A stretch of DNA of 64,000 nucleotides from Norana najaformis (lineage: Eukaryota; Annelida; Clitellata; Crassiclitellata; Hormogastridae), in assembly GCA_964023275.1 (NCBI GenBank), contig OZ029916.1, positions 13,508,607-13,572,606 of the forward strand. Reading direction: 5' to 3'. Each line of letters opens with the position of its first letter. Position 1 is the stretch's first letter. The notes under the pieces are model-generated. The model was given only the letters and a program-made list of their open reading frames with translations. It did no database searches and was not told where the DNA came from. Shown piece after piece: positions 16,980 through 59,599 of the stretch. Made by a program: the position numbers and the translations under genes.

Positions 16980-18239
16980 ACACTGGACATAGAAGATTTT
17001 GCTTCCTCAACACTTTTGGGTGCATCTTATGGCTTTTGGGCTGCTTATAACAAAAATGACCTTTAAATTTTTCTGTCACATACCGTTTTTTGGAATCGCC
17101 CATTTTTGTGATTTCCTCTCACATTTTCAGTCTACTAATATGTTACCCACAAATTAAGCTGTTTTTAAAGTCCTGACATGCCTGGGCATGCACTCAGTAC
17201 AAGTTGAACAACGGGCAATAGAAATGTTAAGTCTTAGGCATGCCTGGCCATGCTTATTTAGGATGGATGCTTTCAGGGCAGGCTCTAAAAGCAGCTCGCA
17301 TATGCAGATGTTATACATCACATTGATATCAGTTTGTACATATGTTGATGCACATGTTCTACAGGCTTAGACAGTATAGTGTGCGTACTTAACGACAGCA
17401 TTCATTGTCTACAGGACGATTGTTACAGCAGAAATGTCTCGCAACAGCCGCGATACATTATGTTGCATTTGTCGCGCGTATACACTTAAGCCTCAATGTC
17501 GCAGCATGACTGCACTTAATAAGAAAGCGTATAAGCTCTAATTCGGTTGTAAAATTGATGAACAAGACAAACCACATTTGCTGTTCAACATGTTGTGCTG
17601 TCGATCTGAGAGCTTTGGTGGTGGGCTGCCGATCTCATTGCTCTGCTGCGTAAGATGACTTGGTCGTCCCGCCGGTCCCAACTTCTATAGCACAGCAGAG
17701 AAGCTTTGCCATTTCAGTCTATCTTTCGGGAGGTATCTCTCAGAGGTACTCGGAAGTCAATGCTGTTCGCAGTCCTGATGATATGGCGAGAACAGAAGGA
17801 TCACTGACTGTTACTTCTGTCTGACCAATGTCTCTGGCTTCTCTGCTAACAAAGAAATCTATTGAATACCCCAATCTGTCTTCAACCATGAGACCAGTGC
17901 TGCATGACGACAGTTTGCCAATACCGAAGCCACCAGAGACATGGAGCCTAGATGAAGCAGACCTTCGTCTGCCATAATGCACGAGCCAGACGCTGAAAAC
18001 GACTTTGATCTAGATTTTGAACCGTTTATGTCCGGTGAGCCTCATCCACTTCATAGGATTCCAGAAAGCACGACGTTACACAAGCGATGCTGAAATCATT
18101 TGGAGTTGGAAGGAGGCTGTTGCAAATAATCCAAAGTGTATATGAGATGCTAAGTCAGCAGTCCGAGTGGGCAAGGGGCTTGGAGACTGTTTCAGAACTA
18201 CAACACTAGATAGGGAGACCCAATCTCCACAACGGCATT

Positions 18240-19207
18240 CATCACATACTTAGAGTGTAGTGGATAGTATAAAAGAAAATGGAACGGAAATCACGGTCCA
18301 CGGAATCAAAATCAACAACCTAAGATTTGCGGATGGCATAGACCTGATTGCAGAACAAAAGAAACATCATTCAGAAAAACGTTGAAATTCTATACACAGA
18401 AGGAAAGAATACAGAATAAAGAATAAAAAATTAACATCATAACACGAAGTTGATGATAATTGGTGCCTAGGAGAACGAGGTCTCAATGGAAGTAGGTGGT
18501 GAGAGGATCGAAAGTGTGGGCGAATTTGTTTATTTGGGAAGCCTGCCGACATGGGACAATGACTGTACTGCAAATCTTAGGTTCTCGCCATATCCTCGGG
18601 ACTGCGAACGGCATTGACTTCCGAGTACCTACCTATACAAGCCCTCAGATCGACAGCATATGTTGCACAGCAAATACGAGGAGAAGAATAACAAAAGCAA
18701 GCGGAGCAATGGCGGATTTCAAGAACATCTGAAGAAGCAGGGAGATTAGTGCGCACAACAAAGTGAAAATTATCAAAACATGCACATTCAGTGTGTTGCT
18801 GTATGCAAGTGAAACTTGGATGCTGTACATGCAGAACAACGATAGATTACTGACATAGGATTCCAGAAAGCACGACGTTACACAACGTTACACATCTGTA
18901 CCATCTCAAATGATGAGATGGTACAGATGACTATTACACATCAGATGGCAACAGAAGGTCACAAACACTGAGGTGCGAAGACGCGTTGCACAGGAAACAT
19001 CGTGCAGCAAGTAATGGAAAGTAAATTAAATCTCTTTGGCCACATCTGCAGAATGGATAAAACTAGGATGGTCAAACAAGTGGTGTTCGGAATGATGGAT
19101 GACGGAGGGATCAGAGGTAGACCGAATAGAAAATGGCTGAAACTGGTGCGGGACGGACGTTCTGTGCATAGGCTGAGTCTGTTGGCACGGAACAGAGAAC
19201 AATGAAA
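18240..19207 (+). mobile_element. LINE RT fragment, family C, inserted in transposon copy 4
   Basis: Broken + frames read INNLRFADGIDLIAEQ, with the RT box FADD decayed to FADG. They continue with GEFVYLGSLPTWDNDC, RRRITKASGAMADFKN, KVKIIKTCTFSVLLYASETW and finally SKLNLFGHICRMDKTRMVK...RGRPNRKWL. This is the conserved 3' half of a widespread invertebrate endonuclease-RT LINE; I do not assign the clade. A 50-base inverted piece of transposase sequence lies inside at 18582-18634. A 31-base direct repeat and a 16-bp-stem hairpin also lie in or beside it. Confidence 0.7.
18893..18929. repeat. Perfect 16-bp inverted repeat (hairpin)
   Basis: CATCTGTACCATCTCA is followed after five bases (AATGA) by its exact reverse complement. 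It lies just after the second copy of the 31-base direct repeat (18053-18083 and 18855-18885). Confidence 0.9.
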
Positions 19208-19845
19208 ATCTCCAGTGAGGTATGCGATCGACACCAACGGGCGATTAACTCATGAGCCGAAAGAAAAAGAAAGAAGAGCCTCGTCTCATGTCACAGTCAG
19301 AATTAACCTGGTCAGGGACTCAGTTTTGAAAGAAACAGAAGCAGAACTTCTTGGTTCAAGACTGAAAGGACGGGGTTTGCTGTCGCCAGTACGAACATTT
19401 CTGTCTTTCGAACCAGCGAAGAAGAGACGAGAAATTTCTTTGCACAGCTTGACAACCTCTGTTTCTGTACTGGGTTTGGGTTGTGAGCATGATCCACAAA
19501 TGGCGTCTTTTTATAGATTCGTTACTTTTATGCCTGAAAGCTGTCTTGTTACACCATGGCAATGTCCACCGTGTATTACCTATTGACTGTGCAATACACG
19601 TGAAAGAAACCTACGAAAACATGGAACTCTTGTTAAAACACATACAGTACAACAACTACAACTGGAACTTCTGTGGTGAACTAAATGTAGTGGCACTGCT
19701 ACCAAATCCTCTTGTCTGGTAAACATAAACTCAGGGAACTCATCTAATCTAGGTCTTATTGGAAGGCCCTAAATGAGATACTCCATAGAAACTCACTATC
19801 CACTGCTGGTTAATTGCTTATTTCTTTTGGGGGCTGTTGACCGGG

Positions 19846-29196: not shown

Positions 29197-30010
29197 ACTT
29201 GGCACTCCTCAGCAACTTAAGAAATTAGAATGGCTTAAATCCGTAAAACTGGGTGATTCACTCATTGAGATGACTGATACTGCTCGTGACTTGGGTGTTG
29301 TTTTTGATTCTACCATGTCCCTCATAAACTATGTAAATGGTATTTGTAAGTCATCATACATGTATATTCGTGACATACGCAGAATTATGCATTATGCCCC
29401 CATGTCTTCCAGAATATCCTTAGCCAACGCATTTGTATCCAGTCGCCTTGACTATTGTAACTCCATTCTTGTTGGTACCACTAAGTCAAACATGCAGAAA
29501 CTCCAAAGAGTTCAGAACTCCTTGGCTAGAGGCATAACAAGTACTTCTAAATATGAGCATATAACCACTGTGCTTAAATCTTTACACTGGCTTCCTGTTC
29601 AGCATAGGATTTGTTTCAAATTAGGACTTACAGTTTATAAAACATTGAACTACGGTCAACCACAATACTTGAAATCAGTCCTTATTCGCCAGACTTACCA
29701 TTATTCTGCAAGGTCATCTGATTGTCTTTCTCTGGTCATACCTTGGGCTAGAACTGTTCTTGGTAAACGAGCATTTTCGGTTGCTGGACCAAAATTTTGG
29801 AATTCCCTCCCTGTGTCTGTTCGTTCTGCTCAGTCGCTCCTGTCATTTCGTTCTCAACTTAAAACTTACCTGTTTCAAATTGCTTATCCACTATAGGCTG
29901 CCTCTCTGTCGTGCGGACTGACCTTCTGGATATCGACCTGATTGTGGCTTGGTTTTGGTGTGCCATCGGTTGATGCCTTGTGCATTAGACATCGGCGCAA
30001 TAGAAGTTGC

Positions 30011-32482: not shown

Positions 32483-34368
32483 ACACTGGCCAACACATAA
32501 TTTGTTGCCTCAAATGTTAGAACTGTTTCTGGGTATATTTGACCTGCTGATTCCAGAAAAGGCACCAGTTTTCTCCCAGCAGGTCTAGTTTTCGAGATAT
32601 AGAACATTATGCCATATACCAGTCCTTGCCTCTGCTCGCCCATAAAACATAAGGCTATTGCTATAATTATGTAGTGCTCAATTTATTATGTGATACACTA
32701 AATAAACATAATAATACAAATACTTAAAAGAAAATGGTAGTACCTGAAACTGTACTTATATGATACCAAACAGAACAAGTTTGTTATAAAAATTTCAAGT
32801 CATTCGACACCGAAGAAGCTCCTTTTGTACGATTTCCGAGTGTGGCATCTGCCGGAACAATCGCGCATAATATTCCAGCAATAGTCTGCCATCATGTGTG
32901 CATCCCATCTTCCTTGATATCGATTTTCCATTGTTTTGATGTCTTTGTGAAATCTTTCACCTTGCTCTTCGCTGAAGTCACCAAGATTCTCTGGAAAGCG
33001 ATCTAAGTGACTGTGGAGATAATGGACTTTAATGCTCATGTTGCAGCCAAGCTTGTTGAAATGAAGAAGCATATCCTCTACTAGTTGTGCATAATTGTCT
33101 GCCTTCTTGTTGCCAAGAAAATTTTTAGTTACAAGAACAAAGGAAGACCAGGCACAAGATTCGATTTCATTCATTGATGGTATGAAAAGTGGGTCATTCA
33201 TAAGTTGCCTGATCTGTGGACCATCGAAGATTCCAGCCTTCAATTTTTCCATTGTAATTCCTGGTAACTTGTGTACCATGTATTCGAAGCATGAACCTTC
33301 TTTATTCAAAGCCCTGACAAATTGTTTCATCAGGCCTAGCTTTATATGTAGTGGTGGCAGTATGATCCTATCTCGTGCCACCAAAGATTCCTTGATTACA
33401 TTTTGAGCTCCAACCACCATGTCTTTCCTCGAAGGCCAATCTTTTCTTGTCCAATGTTCATGCAAGGCTCTACTGTCCCAAAGACACAAAAAGCAGGGAT
33501 ACTTTGTGTAGCCACTTTGTTGACCAAGGAGGAAATTTACCATCTTCAAGTCTACACAAATTATCCATTGATGTTCTTTGTATTTTATCTTTTCCAGTAC
33601 TAAAGAGATGGCATTGTACTCTTCTTTCATCCTGGTGGAGTGACCGATTGGAATAGAACCAAATTTGTTGCCGTTATTTAAAAGCACACATTTCAGACTA
33701 CGTTTTGAACTGTCGATTTGGTTGGTTAATGCAGCTCCGTCTGGAGGTAGCCATAACCTTAAGGATGTTCGCATCTGAGGAATTAAATGACTAACCTAAA
33801 AAATAGTAAGAACATGTAGTTATTTAATGCTCACATTCACAGATTGTTCTTGCGACCAACTCTTAATATGCCCTAAGACGACTGCGGCTGCTCTAGCTTT
33901 CAGGAGGCGGTTTATATAGGCTATAAATGCTGACTTCAGCATAATCTATTTACATAGTTCGAAACCATGAAACGCTGTATAAGCACAAATAAATTCTAAA
34001 TGAGGCCATGAATTTAGTGCTGAGTAAGCTGTAGGCTACGGAATAGTTATTTCGTTGAATCAGCAATATCTCAGCACGCGGCAAGATATGCTGATATGCT
34101 GATTTTACATTATAAGGATGTAGGCATTATATGAATCAGCAAGAATTATAATTAGCCATAAATAAAGCTCATTATGACATTTTAGTTTTGCCAAAGACAT
34201 CGTTTAAAGAGTGGACTGGGTTTTCTTTACAAAATCGACGATATCTCAGAAACTAGACCTGATGCACTCAATCCAATGACATTTTCTGAATCAGCGCCCA
34301 AAATTACCCCAAGAACAGGTCTAAAACCGAAGGCAACAAGAAAAAAAATTTTTTCTGTTGGCCAGTGT
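32483..34368 (-). mobile_element. Novel-family DNA transposon, copy 2 (internally deleted) inside piggyBac
   Basis: The ends read TATA-ACACTGGCCAACA and TGTTGGCCAGTGT-TATA. Behind them the inverted repeats stay alignable for about 130 bases, sharing blocks such as TTGTTGCCT, CTGATTC and AGGTCTAGTTT plus GAGATAT. The element spans 1886 bases. TATA flanks both sides (32479-32482, 34369-34372) and piggyBac coding sequence lies on both sides, so the boundaries are well fixed. Only the C-terminal part of the transposase remains; the N-terminal Cys-rich part is absent. Confidence 0.88.
32800..33774 (-). pseudogene. Transposase of copy 2, C-terminal 324 residues
   Basis: This open frame aligns from its IDSSKRSLK block to its end with residues about 250-550 of the intact copy at 56143. 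Shared blocks are the first-Asp block IDSS, ICVDLKMV with the second Asp, GYTKYPCFLCLWDSR, LPPLHIKLGLMKQFV, LKAGIFDGPQIRQLM, FLGNKKADNYAQLVEDMLL, VHYLHSHLDRFP, EEQGERFHKDI and NRYQGRWDAHMMADYCWN. The first codons (MRTSLRL...) do not match and start right after an acceptor-like TTCCTCAG. The original reading presumably came from an upstream part now deleted. The long ORF with conserved blocks suggests either recent loss or trans-mobilisation. Not expected to be functional alone. Confidence 0.8.
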
Positions 34369-36596: not shown

Positions 36597-38832
36597 ACAT
36601 TGGCTAAATAGGCTATTTTTAAACTAAATATACCCATAAAAAACCTGCAAGACGTACCATGTTTTGTTGTAAGCCTTATTCTATTACTTATACGAATGAA
36701 ATATGGGTATCCAAAAAATTAAAGTTATTATGATTGTTTGTTGTCATGAAATTGCATTTATTTTCATAATTATTTCACAAATATCATTGCTACAGACTAT
36801 TTAAAAAGTAACTAGCATATATTTTCAATAATAACCATAAACAGCATAAAAACATTGAAACCTTGTTTGCCCTTGCAAGCTATTCATTTCTTCCTTCTAC
36901 TGTCTGTGTTGAAGTGTTTTCTTTCTGCAAAAACCAACAGTAGTCGCCCAACATGGCTGGGTCCCACCTGCCTTGGTATCTCTCCTCCTTCGTTCGGATA
37001 TCCTGGTGAAATCTTTCACCCTGTTCATCACGGACTCGGTTATCGGGAAAGAATTCAAGATGCGAATGCAAAAAGTGGATCTTTAAAGACATCCTGCAGC
37101 CAAGATTTTCTTAGTCCTTGGGAAGTCTTGAACGAGCTGACGATAGTTTTCCTCTTCATGATTCCCCTGAAAACCCTTGAGCACAGGTGTTAATAATTTC
37201 CATGCAACGCTCTCCTTCATATTAAATTTTTCTTCAAGGTTAGTATAATCCAGTAGCTTCCTAATCTGCAGGCCAACACAGATACCTTCTTTGGGTTTAG
37301 CTTCACTTAGTTTGGGAAATTTTCCCCTTAAGTACAAAAACCATTACTGGTTTTGTCTGTAGCCTTGACAAAACTCTTCATAAGACCAAGTCTGATATGT
37401 AAAGGCGGAAGCAGAACATTAGAAAGGTCAACAATAGACTAATACTTCACGTTACTCTTACCAGGAATTAAGTTATCTCTCTTGGGCCAAGCCTTTGTAT
37501 TGTCATGTTTCTCTGTAGCCCTACTGTCCCACGAACACAGACAACAGGAAAACTTTGTGAAGCCACCTTGAAGTCCAAGCACCAGGGCAATCACTTTCAA
37601 ATAACCACATAACTGCTGTTTGTACTGGTGGCATTTTATAACAGTGAGTATTTTTTCATGCTTTCCTAGGTTTTCTTCATTCTTACAGAATGTGACACTG
37701 GGATAGGAGACTTTTGGTTTCCTTTATGCAGAAGTGCGACTTTTAAGCTGTATTCTGAATGGTAACTGAGTCCATTCCATAGGGTTGTGAGTTGTTCCTA
37801 TTTCTTCCATCAGCCCCGAAATATCCTTGCAGAAACGCAGACAATCCTGCATATTGTAAATGAAGACAAAGCCATATTTCTCTTTCTAAATAATGATATT
37901 TTATACCACTGACCAGAAGATTCCACTCTTGAAGTCATGAACCTAAAATCTCAGATTGTTGTTTTGATTGGCCCAGATCTCGGACAAGATCATTAAGTTC
38001 ATTTTGCTGTATGAGGTGAGGTCCACCTACATTTTCAGGACTACTTGTAGGGTATGAAACAATTCAGGCGCTGGATGTTGCTTAGCGTCTTCCTCTGATG
38101 AAGATGAATCTGTCTTCCCAGTTTTCTGGAGGCCTAGTTATGGGAAGACCTTCTTCACGAGGAACTGGCTTTATAGCCGAAGGTACATTTGGGTAATCAA
38201 TCAATATTGCGCGTTTTCTTTTTCGAAAAGCCTTATGTTTTAGTCAAACAAAAATAGCAGTCATCTGAGTGACTGGTTGGCTCATCATAAACCATGGAAC
38301 TGCAAAGGGCATGGATTTCTTCTTACGTTTCACCCATTCAGTCAGGCTAACATAGCATGAAATGCAGCACACCCGAGGAGCCCACTTTTTGTCCTGATTA
38401 CCAACATGACAGCCAAAATATAAGTAGGTGGCTTGCCTCGCAGTCTTTGTTAAATAAAGACTCTAAGATTTTATAATATACTGTCCAAACAAATGCAAAA
38501 CTTATTTGGTAAATGAATACGTCCGCGACGCTGTTCTTTATCCATTTTAGCACTGAAATTTACTGAGAAACTAACAGCACATGTTTCCACAACAGTATGA
38601 GCAACAAAAATGAGGTTAGATGATGTTCTTTCTTCCAATACCTGCAAGGTATTAATAGGGGCCTACGTAAGCAGTGTTGCCAACCACAAAAATTAAAGTA
38701 TCCCTACAGAAACTAACAATTATTAAACTAAAATTACCTATACCATAAACATATGCCGTGCTGGCCTGTTTTAAAGCACAGATCTGAAATCTGCATCAAA
38801 AAATAATAAAAGGCAGCTACTGTAGTTCATGT
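36597..38832 (-). mobile_element. Novel-family DNA transposon, copy 3 (full-length, decayed) inside an L2-like LINE
   Basis: The left end is TATA-ACATTGGCTAA and the right end TTCATGT-TATA. Each is a diverged form of the ACACTGGCC/GGCCAGTGT terminus, and both are flanked by TATA. Transposase remnants run on the minus strand through the whole family order: QDKKWAPRVCCISCYVSL and KKSMPFAVPWF near 38.3 kb, the PREEGLP linker near 38.1 kb, CLCSWDSRA and LLPPLHIRLGLMKSFVKA near 37.4-37.5 kb, GLQIRKLL near 37.27 kb, and IHFLHSHLEFFP...EQGERFHQDIRT...RYQGRWDPAMLGDYCW at 36.9-37.1 kb. Stops and frameshifts are frequent. A CAGTGTTGCCAACCACA motif at about 38674 resembles a hAT end. Confidence 0.8.
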
Positions 38833-55515: not shown

Positions 55516-56042
55516 CGCTCCACTTCATTTAAAAGGTAATTCAAGTCTTGTGCATTGCCATAATGATGACTTGGTAGTTTCAGATTAGGCCTACATTGGG
55601 TTTACATTGGGTCAACATTTATATGCAAAACTTCACATGAAGCAGGGAAAGGTCGCCAAATCGGGACGATTGGCCTCAACTCTGCAGACATGCATATCAT
55701 ATTGTCGTTGTGCACAGAAACTGTGCTGCTTTTTCTCTCTTGCATTGATTACACTGGATCACAACGATTTTGCTACTGAAAGTAATGCATGTGCCTTATA
55801 TTGATTCAAATGTGCTGATTCCAAATATGAAGTCAGAATTTGCCCAGCACGTCTAGATTTTAAGTTATGCATGCATTCAAGTAATGACGTAAGGACTCGT
55901 TTTCGGTTATGTCTGTACATTCTGTTGTATGTGTCTCCACGATTGCTGCCAGTGATACGTGCATGCCTGCAAGTGTCGCCTGAAATATTCCTAACAGCAA
56001 GACTGCAGCAGCCGCTAGACATGATTGGGCATGTCAGCGAGC

Positions 56043-56070
56043 TGACGTCAGCATCAATACCAGTATATAA
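56043..56070 (+). promoter_or_regulatory. Transposon promoter: CRE plus TATA box
   Basis: A full palindromic TGACGTCA (56043-56050) lies 13 bases before TATATAAGG (56064-56072). The TATA box is about 80 bases upstream of the transposase ATG, placing a start near 56095. CREs are bound by CREB/ATF-type factors in animals. Activity is inferred. Confidence 0.55.
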
Positions 56071-56142
56071 GGCGAGATTGCGTAGAACGAAGGTGAGGTT
56101 TTCTTATATAGCTGTAGCTAGTGTGTGAGATTTAATTTTGAA

Positions 56143-57816
56143 ATGAATAGGCGAGGCTGTGTTAACCATCCAGACAATTTTTGCTATGTTTGTGGCAAAT
56201 ATACTCTTTGTGACCAGCGCAAGAAGTTAACTAAGAGAGTGATGATTGCTTTCAAGTATTATTTTGGATGTCAAATCGGAGACCAGGATAAAAGTTGGGC
56301 ACCTCATGTCTGCTGCACCGTGTGCTACTCTGGGCTTACACAGTGGCTGAATGGCAAAAGGAATTCAATGCCGTTTGCTGTGCCTATGGTGTGGCGCGAG
56401 CCAAGAAATCATCATGCAAACTGTTATTTCTGCATTATTAAAGTTGCTGGACTTTCAAAGAAAAATAAGTCTAAAATCGTTTATCCTGATTGCGAGTCCG
56501 CTCTAAAGCCAGTGCCGCATGATGAAGAGAATCCAGTACCATTTCCGCCTGCTGCGGGTGCTGATGAAACGGACAGTTCTGATGGTAATATAGAAGATGA
56601 CGTTACTGTTTATGAATCCAGTGATCAAGATTTGGAAGAGGGTAGGCCGCATTTGATAAGGCAAGGTGAGTTAGATGATCTGGTGAGGAACCTATCTTTG
56701 TCAAAGGAGCAATCTGAACTGTTAGCCTCCAGACTAGGGGAGTGGAACTTGCTTCAAAAAGGTACCACAACATCACACTTCCGTTTTCGTCACAAACAGT
56801 TAGCTACATATTACAAACTGGAAAATGATATCTGTTTCTGTACTGACGTGAACGGTCTCATGCTGAATTTAGGTTGCGGATACGTTCCTGATCAGTGGAG
56901 ACTGTTCATAGATTCCAGCCAAGCGAGCTTGAAAGCTGTGTTGGTGCACAATGGTAACGAAAAGCCGTCTGTTCCTATAGCCCACGCTGTAGGCCTCAAA
57001 GAGAAATATGATTCAATGAAACTCACTTTGAAAGTGATCAACTACTCAGACCACAAATGGAACATCTGTGCGGACCTCAAAGTGGTAGCACTTATTCTAG
57101 GCCTACAGCTGGGGTACACAAAACATATGTGCTTTTTGTGCTTGTGGAACAGTCGTGATGACAGCAACCATTACAAAGTGAAACTGTGGCCTCCTAGATC
57201 TCAGCACATTGTTGGTCGGCACAACGTGCAACACGAACCATTGGTTGATCCATTGAAAGTGTACTTACCACCACTTCACATTAAACTGGGCCTCATGAGG
57301 AATTTCGTAGTGGCAATGGATCGTACTGGACAAGGCTTCCAGTATCTGAGAGATAAATTTGGAGCCGTCAAAACTGATGCTAAGCTGAAGGCTGGAATTT
57401 TTATTGGGCCAGAAATCCGCGAACTAATGCGTGATACTGTATTTAGAACCAAGCTCAACCCACTGGAATTTGCCGCTTGGGATGCATATACGTTGGTGGT
57501 GCAAAACTTCCTTGGGAATCACCGAGCTAAGAACTATGCTGAACTCGTTAGCAACATGCTTACAGCATATAAGCAACTCGGCTGCCGGATGTCACTAAAA
57601 ATACATTTCTTACATTCCAATCTGGATTTTTTTCCGCCATACTTGGGTGATGTAAGCGATGAGCGTGGAGCGAGATTCCATCAAGACATCTCCACCTTTG
57701 AAGCAAGATATCAGGGCCACTGCAATTCCAACATGATGGGCGATTACTGCTGGTTTCTGCAGCTGGCAACAGCGGCCACTCACAAGCGCAAGAGCAAGTG
57801 TCTAAAGCACTTTTGA
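56143..57816 (+). CDS. Intact transposase of an unassigned DNA-transposon family (557 aa)
   Basis: Likely catalyses excision and integration of its own element. The first ATG of the frame is 56143; the frame is open six codons further upstream without an ATG. The N-terminus (residues 6-97) is Cys/His-rich: C14-x2-C17, C43, C57/C58-x2-C61, H90-H91-x2-C94-x2-C97, a probable zinc-binding DNA-recognition domain. An acidic linker (about 127-167) follows. The rest contains blocks conserved in copies 2 and 3: FIDSS (D257), CADLKVV (D311), GYTKHMCFLCLWNSR, PPLHIKLGLM, KAGIFIGPEIRELM, FLGNHRAKNYAELV and ERGARFHQD (E507, H513, D515), then RYQG. D257, D311 and E507 are candidates for an RNase-H-fold DDE triad, with the CxxC just after the second Asp; that is inference. 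I know similar unannotated proteins occur in arthropods and cnidarians but cannot name the superfamily. Confidence 0.82.
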   Translation: MNRRGCVNHPDNFCYVCGKYTLCDQRKKLTKRVMIAFKYYFGCQIGDQDKSWAPHVCCTVCYSGLTQWLNGKRNSMPFAVPMVWREPRNHHANCYFCIIKVAGLSKKNKSKIVYPDCESALKPVPHDEENPVPFPPAAGADETDSSDGNIEDDVTVYESSDQDLEEGRPHLIRQGELDDLVRNLSLSKEQSELLASRLGEWNLLQKGTTTSHFRFRHKQLATYYKLENDICFCTDVNGLMLNLGCGYVPDQWRLFIDSSQASLKAVLVHNGNEKPSVPIAHAVGLKEKYDSMKLTLKVINYSDHKWNICADLKVVALILGLQLGYTKHMCFLCLWNSRDDSNHYKVKLWPPRSQHIVGRHNVQHEPLVDPLKVYLPPLHIKLGLMRNFVVAMDRTGQGFQYLRDKFGAVKTDAKLKAGIFIGPEIRELMRDTVFRTKLNPLEFAAWDAYTLVVQNFLGNHRAKNYAELVSNMLTAYKQLGCRMSLKIHFLHSNLDFFPPYLGDVSDERGARFHQDISTFEARYQGHCNSNMMGDYCWFLQLATAATHKRKSKCLKHF

Positions 57817-58372
57817 ACTCGTATAGAGTTAAGCTAGAGACAAAATTTCGAAATGTATGCTTTCATCTGAGTAACATACATATATTTATATTACATTTTA
57901 AAACATATTTTAATTTCAAGTTATAAAAGAATAACATTTTGTTTCTTGTTATGAATACTCTGAGTTTGCATAATTACACAGTTATAAGGAAATACTAGTT
58001 CTGTAGAGTTTGCATAATTATTAGCATGTATGCTGCATATCTTAAGATCCTGACGTGCTACACAAAATCTGACTTCAGATTTGGAATCAGCAGGTTCGAT
58101 TTAGTGTAGTACACATAACATATGCCTAGTAGCAGGCGAAAAATCTTTTCGTGTGATCCAGTGTTATTATAGGCAATCGTTTAAATTTCAAAGCAGTTAG
58201 CATATTTAATAAATCTGGAGGAAAAATAAATCTTAAAACTACTTAAAATTTAATTTAGAAATCAATATTAACTGTAAACTACTCCCAGTTACCAAGCTCT
58301 ACAAGCGTCTTAAACTGAAGAAGACGTAAACTCATTGAATGAAGCAAATGGACTGAGTGTTAATCAAACTGC

Positions 58373-58896
58373 CTATCTGGCAGCCATAGTAGCACATAAG
58401 AGAAGAAAGATGATGAGGCTGGTGATGGATCGGTTGCTGAGGTTAGCCTCAGATGCTGTTGTCTGATGACAGGCAGTGTAGTTCTTGTAGTCGAGTTGTG
58501 TGATGGCGCAGTAGTGAACGATTCGAGTCTCCGATGACCATTTCTCGTTCATGTCGAAGTAGAGACCGTTGACTTTATAGTATTTGTCGAAGAGAGCGTC
58601 ATCTGTCCACATCCGGTCCACGAGGTTCCTGAGTGAAGTCGTCGTCATATCCGGTTGGCCGTAGTATTCGGTGGCATTGTAGGCCAGCCTCCACTGCGCT
58701 ACGAGTTCCTGCGGCTGACTGTTTGCCTCCGTCAAGTTCAGGTAGTACTGAAGTACGTTGATTACTGCTGCACTTGTTCGGTTGTACTGGACGAGACGGA
58801 CGCCGGGGTTGTTACCCGCTCCACCCATCACTCCAGGTAGAGTAGTTTCCCACGGAGTGACGGCCGGTGCAATAAAAAACGAGCCAACTGTTGTGC
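58373..58896 (-). CDS. Acid-sphingomyelinase-like phosphodiesterase (SMPDL3 type), last exon
   Basis: The exon starts after acceptor GTCAATTGCAG and ends at TAG 58375-58373. Its first two bases complete a Gly codon (G|GC) from the previous exon. It encodes the C-terminal region of the SMPDL3 family: FFIAPAVTPWETTLPGVMGG with the catalytic-fold APAVTPW, then GNNPGVRLVQYNR, YLNLTEAN, WRLAYNATEYYG and a Cys-bearing HYCAITQLDYKNYTACH. After that come Ser/Asn-rich residues and a hydrophobic end (LIIFLLLCATM), like the GPI-attachment signal of SMPDL3B. The enzyme is a zinc-dependent extracellular or lysosomal phosphodiesterase acting on nucleotide or lipid phosphodiesters; the substrate here is unknown. 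Five N-glycosylation sequons fit secretion. Confidence 0.88.
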
Positions 58897-59599
58897 CTGC
58901 AATTGACAACAAAATTTGCGAGTCCATGAATCAACCCCGTATTTCACCTTATAAATGCAAGATTAAGGGATTAACGCCGCAAATTCCGCAGTTAGAGGAT
59001 ACCGACTAATAAGAATTTCTGGACCAAGTATGGGCCAACATCCAGCAAAACTGCATCCAGGTGAACAGCATCGTAAAGAAGACCAAAAGATAGGCCAAAG
59101 AACGATCTCAGAGACCCACGACCAAGTGGCGCTGAGACGGCGAATTGCTACAGGCGAATGAAGCGCTGAGACGGCGAATTGCTACAGGCGAATGAAGCAT
59201 TCGCAGCAGACGCGCTCATTGATCCGAACTCCCGTTGTTGCTGTTGTTGTTGGTGAAATGTGTCGCTTTCGAAGACCCGCCGCCATTAGACCTGAGCTGG
59301 TCTGATCGTTCGTCAGTAGCCATGCCGGTTGGTGGCTAATGACGGCCACTCTGCAGTGGACGATCGATTACCTGGGCTCGTCGAGTCATCGAGGCATTAC
59401 CGTTTACCCGGGATTGGCATTGTCGAAAAGGGTGACGGTTGGACCTCTGTACCGTCGGTCGTCATTTTCTTTCGGTTCAAACTGAACGTATAAAAATCTA
59501 TTTGCGGATTTCTCTGTTGCTTTCGACTGTGCCGAACAATGTATTCTGTTCAGTCTTGTAACAATCCTTCGGCATCTCTGGTACATTCCTCAGTTCGTT

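Follow-up and report, generated by a model that had tools for sequence, protein, structure and literature searches.

Chapaev3 transposons are relatives of RAG1, the enzyme that assembles antibody genes. Transib elements have CAC ends, make 5-base-pair (bp) target duplications and possess a Glu motif similar to the SEGNE motif of RAG1, and CACTA/EnSpm, Mirage and Chapaev proper differ in the length of the target duplication or in site preference: Chapaev outside Chapaev3 makes a 4-bp duplication, and CACTA/EnSpm has CACTA termini and a 2-3 bp duplication with no preference for TWA (W being A or T). Here we describe a DNA transposon in a 64,000-nucleotide (nt) stretch of the genome of the annelid Norana najaformis (assembly GCA_964023275.1, contig OZ029916.1, positions 13,508,607 to 13,572,606; hereafter the window), which, compared by published description, is very probably a full-length copy of a new and young Chapaev3-type family within the CACTA-Mirage-Chapaev-Transib group. 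The sections of PMC4079192 that treat these elements give 3-4 bp duplications for Chapaev as a whole and C(2)C, LH and H(4)H as Chapaev motifs, and place Chapaev3 insertions always between A and T. The Chapaev3 elements Merrow and Garfield, as described there, have CAC/GTG ends, TWA between A and T, the same three motifs, a size of about 2.3-2.45 kilobases (kb), and transposases of 556 or 562 amino acids; these are encoded in two exons, where the window element, like most other Chapaev3, has one. According to parts of PMC12730594, CACTA/EnSpm, Mirage and Chapaev proper also have the C(2)C and H(3-4)H motifs in common with such elements, as well as, for the most part, CA..TG termini, and 3-bp duplications occur in EnSpm too.

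The features of the element, in window coordinates, are these:

55752..58163, + strand: whole element, 2412 bp, CAC...GTG
55749..55751, no strand: left target duplication TTA with A before it, read from the sequence
58164..58166, no strand: right target duplication TTA with T after it, read from the sequence
55752..55871, + strand: left imperfect terminal inverted repeat, from pairing and end alignment
58034..58163, - strand: right imperfect terminal inverted repeat, from pairing and end alignment
56064..56071, + strand: TATATAAG, candidate promoter-like word, present in 73 of 78 copies
56143..57816, + strand: transposase open reading frame, 557 codons and stop, single exon, from the list of open frames
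56182..56433, + strand: N-terminal Cys/His cluster C14, C17, C58, C61, H90, C94 and C97, in (nearly) invariant columns
56911..56913, + strand: D257, putative first catalytic Asp, in 112 of 112 homologues, the fold being RAG1-like by superposition
57073..57075, + strand: D311, putative second catalytic Asp, in 112 of 112 homologues
57130..57141, + strand: C330-x-x-C333, the C(2)C motif, each Cys in 112 of 112 homologues
57274..57279, + strand: L378-H379, the LH motif, L378 in 111 and H379 in 112 of 112 homologues
57604..57621, + strand: H488-x4-N493, the family H(4)H with its second His lost here, H493 in 112 of 112 homologues
57661..57672, + strand: E507-x-x-A510, the family E-x-x-E with Ala in the window copy, E510 in 112 and E507 in 110 of 112 homologues

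The initial annotation had recognised the element but set it at 55751..58164; the outermost A and T lie outside it, because both belong to the TTA target duplication, so that its junctions read A-TTA-CACTGG...CCAGTG-TTA-T. Its identical 12-base ends, CACTGGATCACA, at 55752-55763 (+) and 58152-58163 (-), are the sole zero-mismatch matches in the window. The imperfect inverted termini of more than 110 bases, the promoter-like word suggested by the sequence and the uninterrupted 557-codon frame were all correctly described: the inverted repeat is about 120 bp long, with 55789-55871 pairing with 58034-58116 at 77% complementarity over 83 nt, and the 125-nt ends align with a score of 120, whereas 200 shuffles average 31.5 and reach at most 56.

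The genome (608,420,607 bases in 17 contigs) was searched with the element's DNA, which gave 565 first-look candidates, 40 of them scored (the window copy and 39 others), and with its protein, which gave 6454 candidates, 78 of them scored. We fetched 78 copies, 40 by DNA likeness to the window copy and 38 from the protein search, a sample that favours like copies. For 67 of these, both ends were located no more than 5 nt from the 55752-58163 limits; the other 11, with an end missing or altered, were dropped from the junction sample. An exact 3-bp duplication flanks 50 of the 67 (23 TAA, 23 TTA, 2 TTT, 1 CAA and 1 CTA), and when right flanks were shuffled among copies the mean was 23.9 matches and the maximum 36 in 10,000 shuffles. 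TWA, the Chapaev3 target, accounts for 46 of the 50 exact duplications; an A stands before the left duplication in 57 of the 67 copies and a T after the right one in 61, as described for Chapaev3 insertions, and the CAC/GTG ends are present in 65 of the 67 at each end. Among the first 40 copies the junctions match over 3 bp in 27, and over 2, 4 and 5 bp in 2, 0 and 2, respectively. One copy, L074 (copies are told apart here by L numbers), had inserted into an older repeat, and its flanks, joined with a single TTA, served as a query. The 40 rows retained (the best 40 of 150 candidates) comprised two for L074 itself and 38 for other places, where the alignment runs in one piece across the L074 junction; all six of the best related sites, read at the junction, lack the insert and have a single trinucleotide at the target.

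The transposase itself points the same way. Public data hold 1680 homologous proteins at an expectation value (E) of 0.001 or less, and among the best 120, which were listed, two come with species names, the leech Helobdella robusta and the moth Mythimna loreyi; the conservation counts refer to an alignment of 112 of these 120, eight shorter proteins being omitted. At the level of the family the C(2)C, LH and H(4)H motifs of Chapaev3 are all present, the window copy itself having N493; H488 is kept in 111 of the 112 homologues and H513 in all of them. A structural model of the transposase (predicted local distance difference test 89.8, predicted template modelling score 0.67) gives the core, residues 170-550, the predicted fold of RAG1 and Transib by superposition of the whole core, a fold that characterises the CACTA-Mirage-Chapaev-Transib group, and the order D, D, C(2)C, H(4)H, E is likewise shared with Transib and RAG1. 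We prefer E510 over E507 as the likelier catalytic Glu, because it is invariant and lies a few residues past the Ser that starts a helix, S505 being the first residue of the last long helix (505-522) of the predicted model; in RAG1 the corresponding residue is E962 in SEGNE (placed via the E962Q chains), with a Ser-to-Glu spacing of 4, compared with 5 in the window family.

The initial annotation could assign the element to no superfamily. We file it under Chapaev3 because the CAC/GTG ends, the TWA between A and T, the family motifs, the size and the single exon agree with the hallmarks that PMC4079192, in the sections cited above, publishes; anatomy and fold thus link it to a named superfamily whose ends are of the same kind. 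At the same time, several observations weigh against this assignment. The comparison with Chapaev3 was one with published hallmarks. Profile searches of the 557-residue protein against Pfam, NCBIfam and PHROGs returned no families, with no Pfam match even at E 10; a search of the PDB with the single sequence gave no match, and the one hit of a profile search there was HypK (E 3), probably due to low complexity. Copies without an exact duplication number 17 of 67, where, by our estimate, about 5 would be expected from a divergence of about 1.2% over six bases. Five of these show a clean duplication once an extra TA is set aside (on the right in L030, L041 and L079, on the left in L044 and L047), as if two bases of the donor TWA duplication had been carried along, and the extra TA at one end may reflect slippage of the excision cut. 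The other 12 (L011, L016, L018, L019, L023, L026, L031, L042, L048, L058, L062 and L082) have mismatched duplications without an extra TA, in excess of what a divergence of about 1% should produce, and are unexplained; in L023, L042, L048 and L058 a TAA faces a TTA, or the reverse, across the element, and L018 and L042, which match only after three extra bases, were left out of the explained set. Nor are the 67 insertions all independent: L055 and L057 have flanks of 97-100% identity, the insertion having been duplicated, and L057/L060 and L061/L062 differ by less than 0.5%. Finally, the target trinucleotide in the six related sites of L074 (about 83% identical) is CTG, not TTA, so that they show the exact pre-insertion site of L074 only indirectly.

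The likeliest of the other readings is a separate branch of the CACTA/Mirage/Chapaev/Transib group with Chapaev3-like anatomy, to which comparison by description and the silence of Pfam lend some weight. In such a sister lineage, standing beside Chapaev3, the ATWAT target would have converged or been retained, and the 2-nt TA would show excision slipping by two bases. We consider it unlikely, since target site, A/T flanks, ends, motif order, length and single exon all agree with published Chapaev3. Membership in Transib itself, the RAG1-type elements, is suggested by the shared core and is less likely still, being largely refuted by the junctions (5-bp matches in 2 of 40 copies, 3-bp matches in 27), and the solved Transib and RAG1 chains show no similarity by sequence, even with a profile. 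Chapaev proper, considered as a candidate, was rejected, a 4-bp junction match occurring in none of the 40 copies. For CACTA/EnSpm the signs are mixed: the family ends read CACTGG and the target site is TWA, but EnSpm too can make 3-bp duplications. A single long open frame might also belong to a domesticated host gene, a reading to which we give almost no credence: 377 dispersed left ends and the target duplications refute it for the window copy, and the private coding changes are neutral. Overall, we believe that Chapaev3 remains the best home for this family. A fold search of BFVD gave no match at E 0.001, and viral contigs searched with P0043 held no relative; the part of PMC4079192 on Garfield puts a bracovirus copy of that element on record. 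The literature search found nothing on ERFHQD, nor on Chapaev with CACTGG, and the portions of PMC3630058, PMC6004678 and PMC8230255 seen contain nothing decisive for the window element.

The family is recent. The left end TWACACTGGATCACAACG, with at most one mismatch, occurs 377 times in the genome (184 + 193), counted as left ends and not as full-length elements, against once for the reversed control pattern. The 39 other scored copies (best 40 of 565 candidates, with the window copy) are full-length or nearly so and 97-98% identical to it, and the 78 copies lie at a median distance of 1.2% from their majority and of 2.4% from one another. This spread is that of a burst which counts as recent by any usual clock, followed by neutral decay: private coding changes among the 78 copies comprise 587 nonsynonymous and 189 synonymous, a ratio of 3.11 where 2.93 is expected. 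The 21 private stops, at 0.11 per synonymous change, are somewhat fewer than the 0.17 expected, as happens when copies are picked by protein match. The frame is open in 47 of the 78 copies, 42 of which keep all eight checked motif residues.

The window copy is less fortunate. From the majority of 40 copies it differs by 19 nonsynonymous and 4 synonymous codon changes, including H493N and E510A, both at residues kept in every aligned homologue; among the 78 copies it alone has N at 493, and four others have Q at 510. Its own enzyme is probably inactive, judging from these substitutions, because H493 of the published H(4)H and the likely catalytic Glu are lost. The element is not confirmed as intact in the sense of a working enzyme, and the expectation of a DDE-type (Asp-Asp-Glu) transposon that recently was mobile is borne out at the level of the family. 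Its ends look complete, and it could perhaps be moved by enzyme made elsewhere.

A general transposition cycle can still be proposed. The N-terminal Cys/His cluster, for which we infer zinc binding and DNA recognition, would bind the terminal repeats; the RAG1/Transib-like DDE core would excise the element next to its CAC ends and join it to an ATWAT target with a 3-nt stagger; and gap filling would leave TWA duplications between A and T. Computation shows the ends and the duplications, the related sites without an insert, the size of the family, its neutral decay following a burst and the predicted fold; around these, the cleavage chemistry, with or without a hairpin, and the role of each domain are inferred.

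The window also holds relatives, which the initial annotation took for three further copies sharing core and ends. By tblastn they lie at 17443-19701, 32830-33717 and 36907-38495, with 37.5-59% identity by piece (the 59% covering 22 residues alone), and within-window blastn finds one copy of the element only; the shared core is real, but these are diverged relatives, and both ends are seen in only one:

32484..34367, - strand: second, diverged Chapaev3-like element with CACTGGCCAACA at both ends, flanks A-TAA / TTA-T

The flanks of this element are of TWA type but not identical (TAA, TTA), and the transposase fragment in it, 32830-33717, is 51% identical to the window transposase over 297 residues. 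Two-mismatch end-like sites in the window number 20, with 15.8 expected; since such lone sites are at chance level, what counts is that two identical 12-base ends flank a transposase fragment. At 36907-38495 and at 17443-19701 the match is split over several frames. The decayed relative at 17443-19701 perhaps has a CACTGG end at 16981; lone sites of this kind are close to chance, random sequence being expected to give 0.95 per 64 kb, and another, at 29585, lies beside no known element. Its coding part contains a 55-nt inverted repeat (17744-17798 / 18576-18630, 91%), an arrangement that suggests rearrangement or a nested pair; the L074 flanks match 18360-18562 and 18681-18856, a piece of another repeat inside it. 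A 184-residue open frame at 58373-58927 (-) adjoins the window element, and we take it to resemble the end of a sphingomyelinase-like phosphodiesterase. Elsewhere in the genome (G000), L055 and L057 (C5, 33.12 and 33.22 megabases) are the same insertion within a recent segmental duplication, and C15 has decayed nuclear copies of mitochondrial COX1 at 412069-412726 and 570464-571281.

As a discovery the element is ordinary, and a comparison against Repbase or Dfam would probably have given the family its name. Regardless of its name, the family is well populated and recent, with its hundreds of left ends and many copies still open with every checked motif residue, and the superposition of the model core on RAG1 and Transib supports the published grouping by structure.
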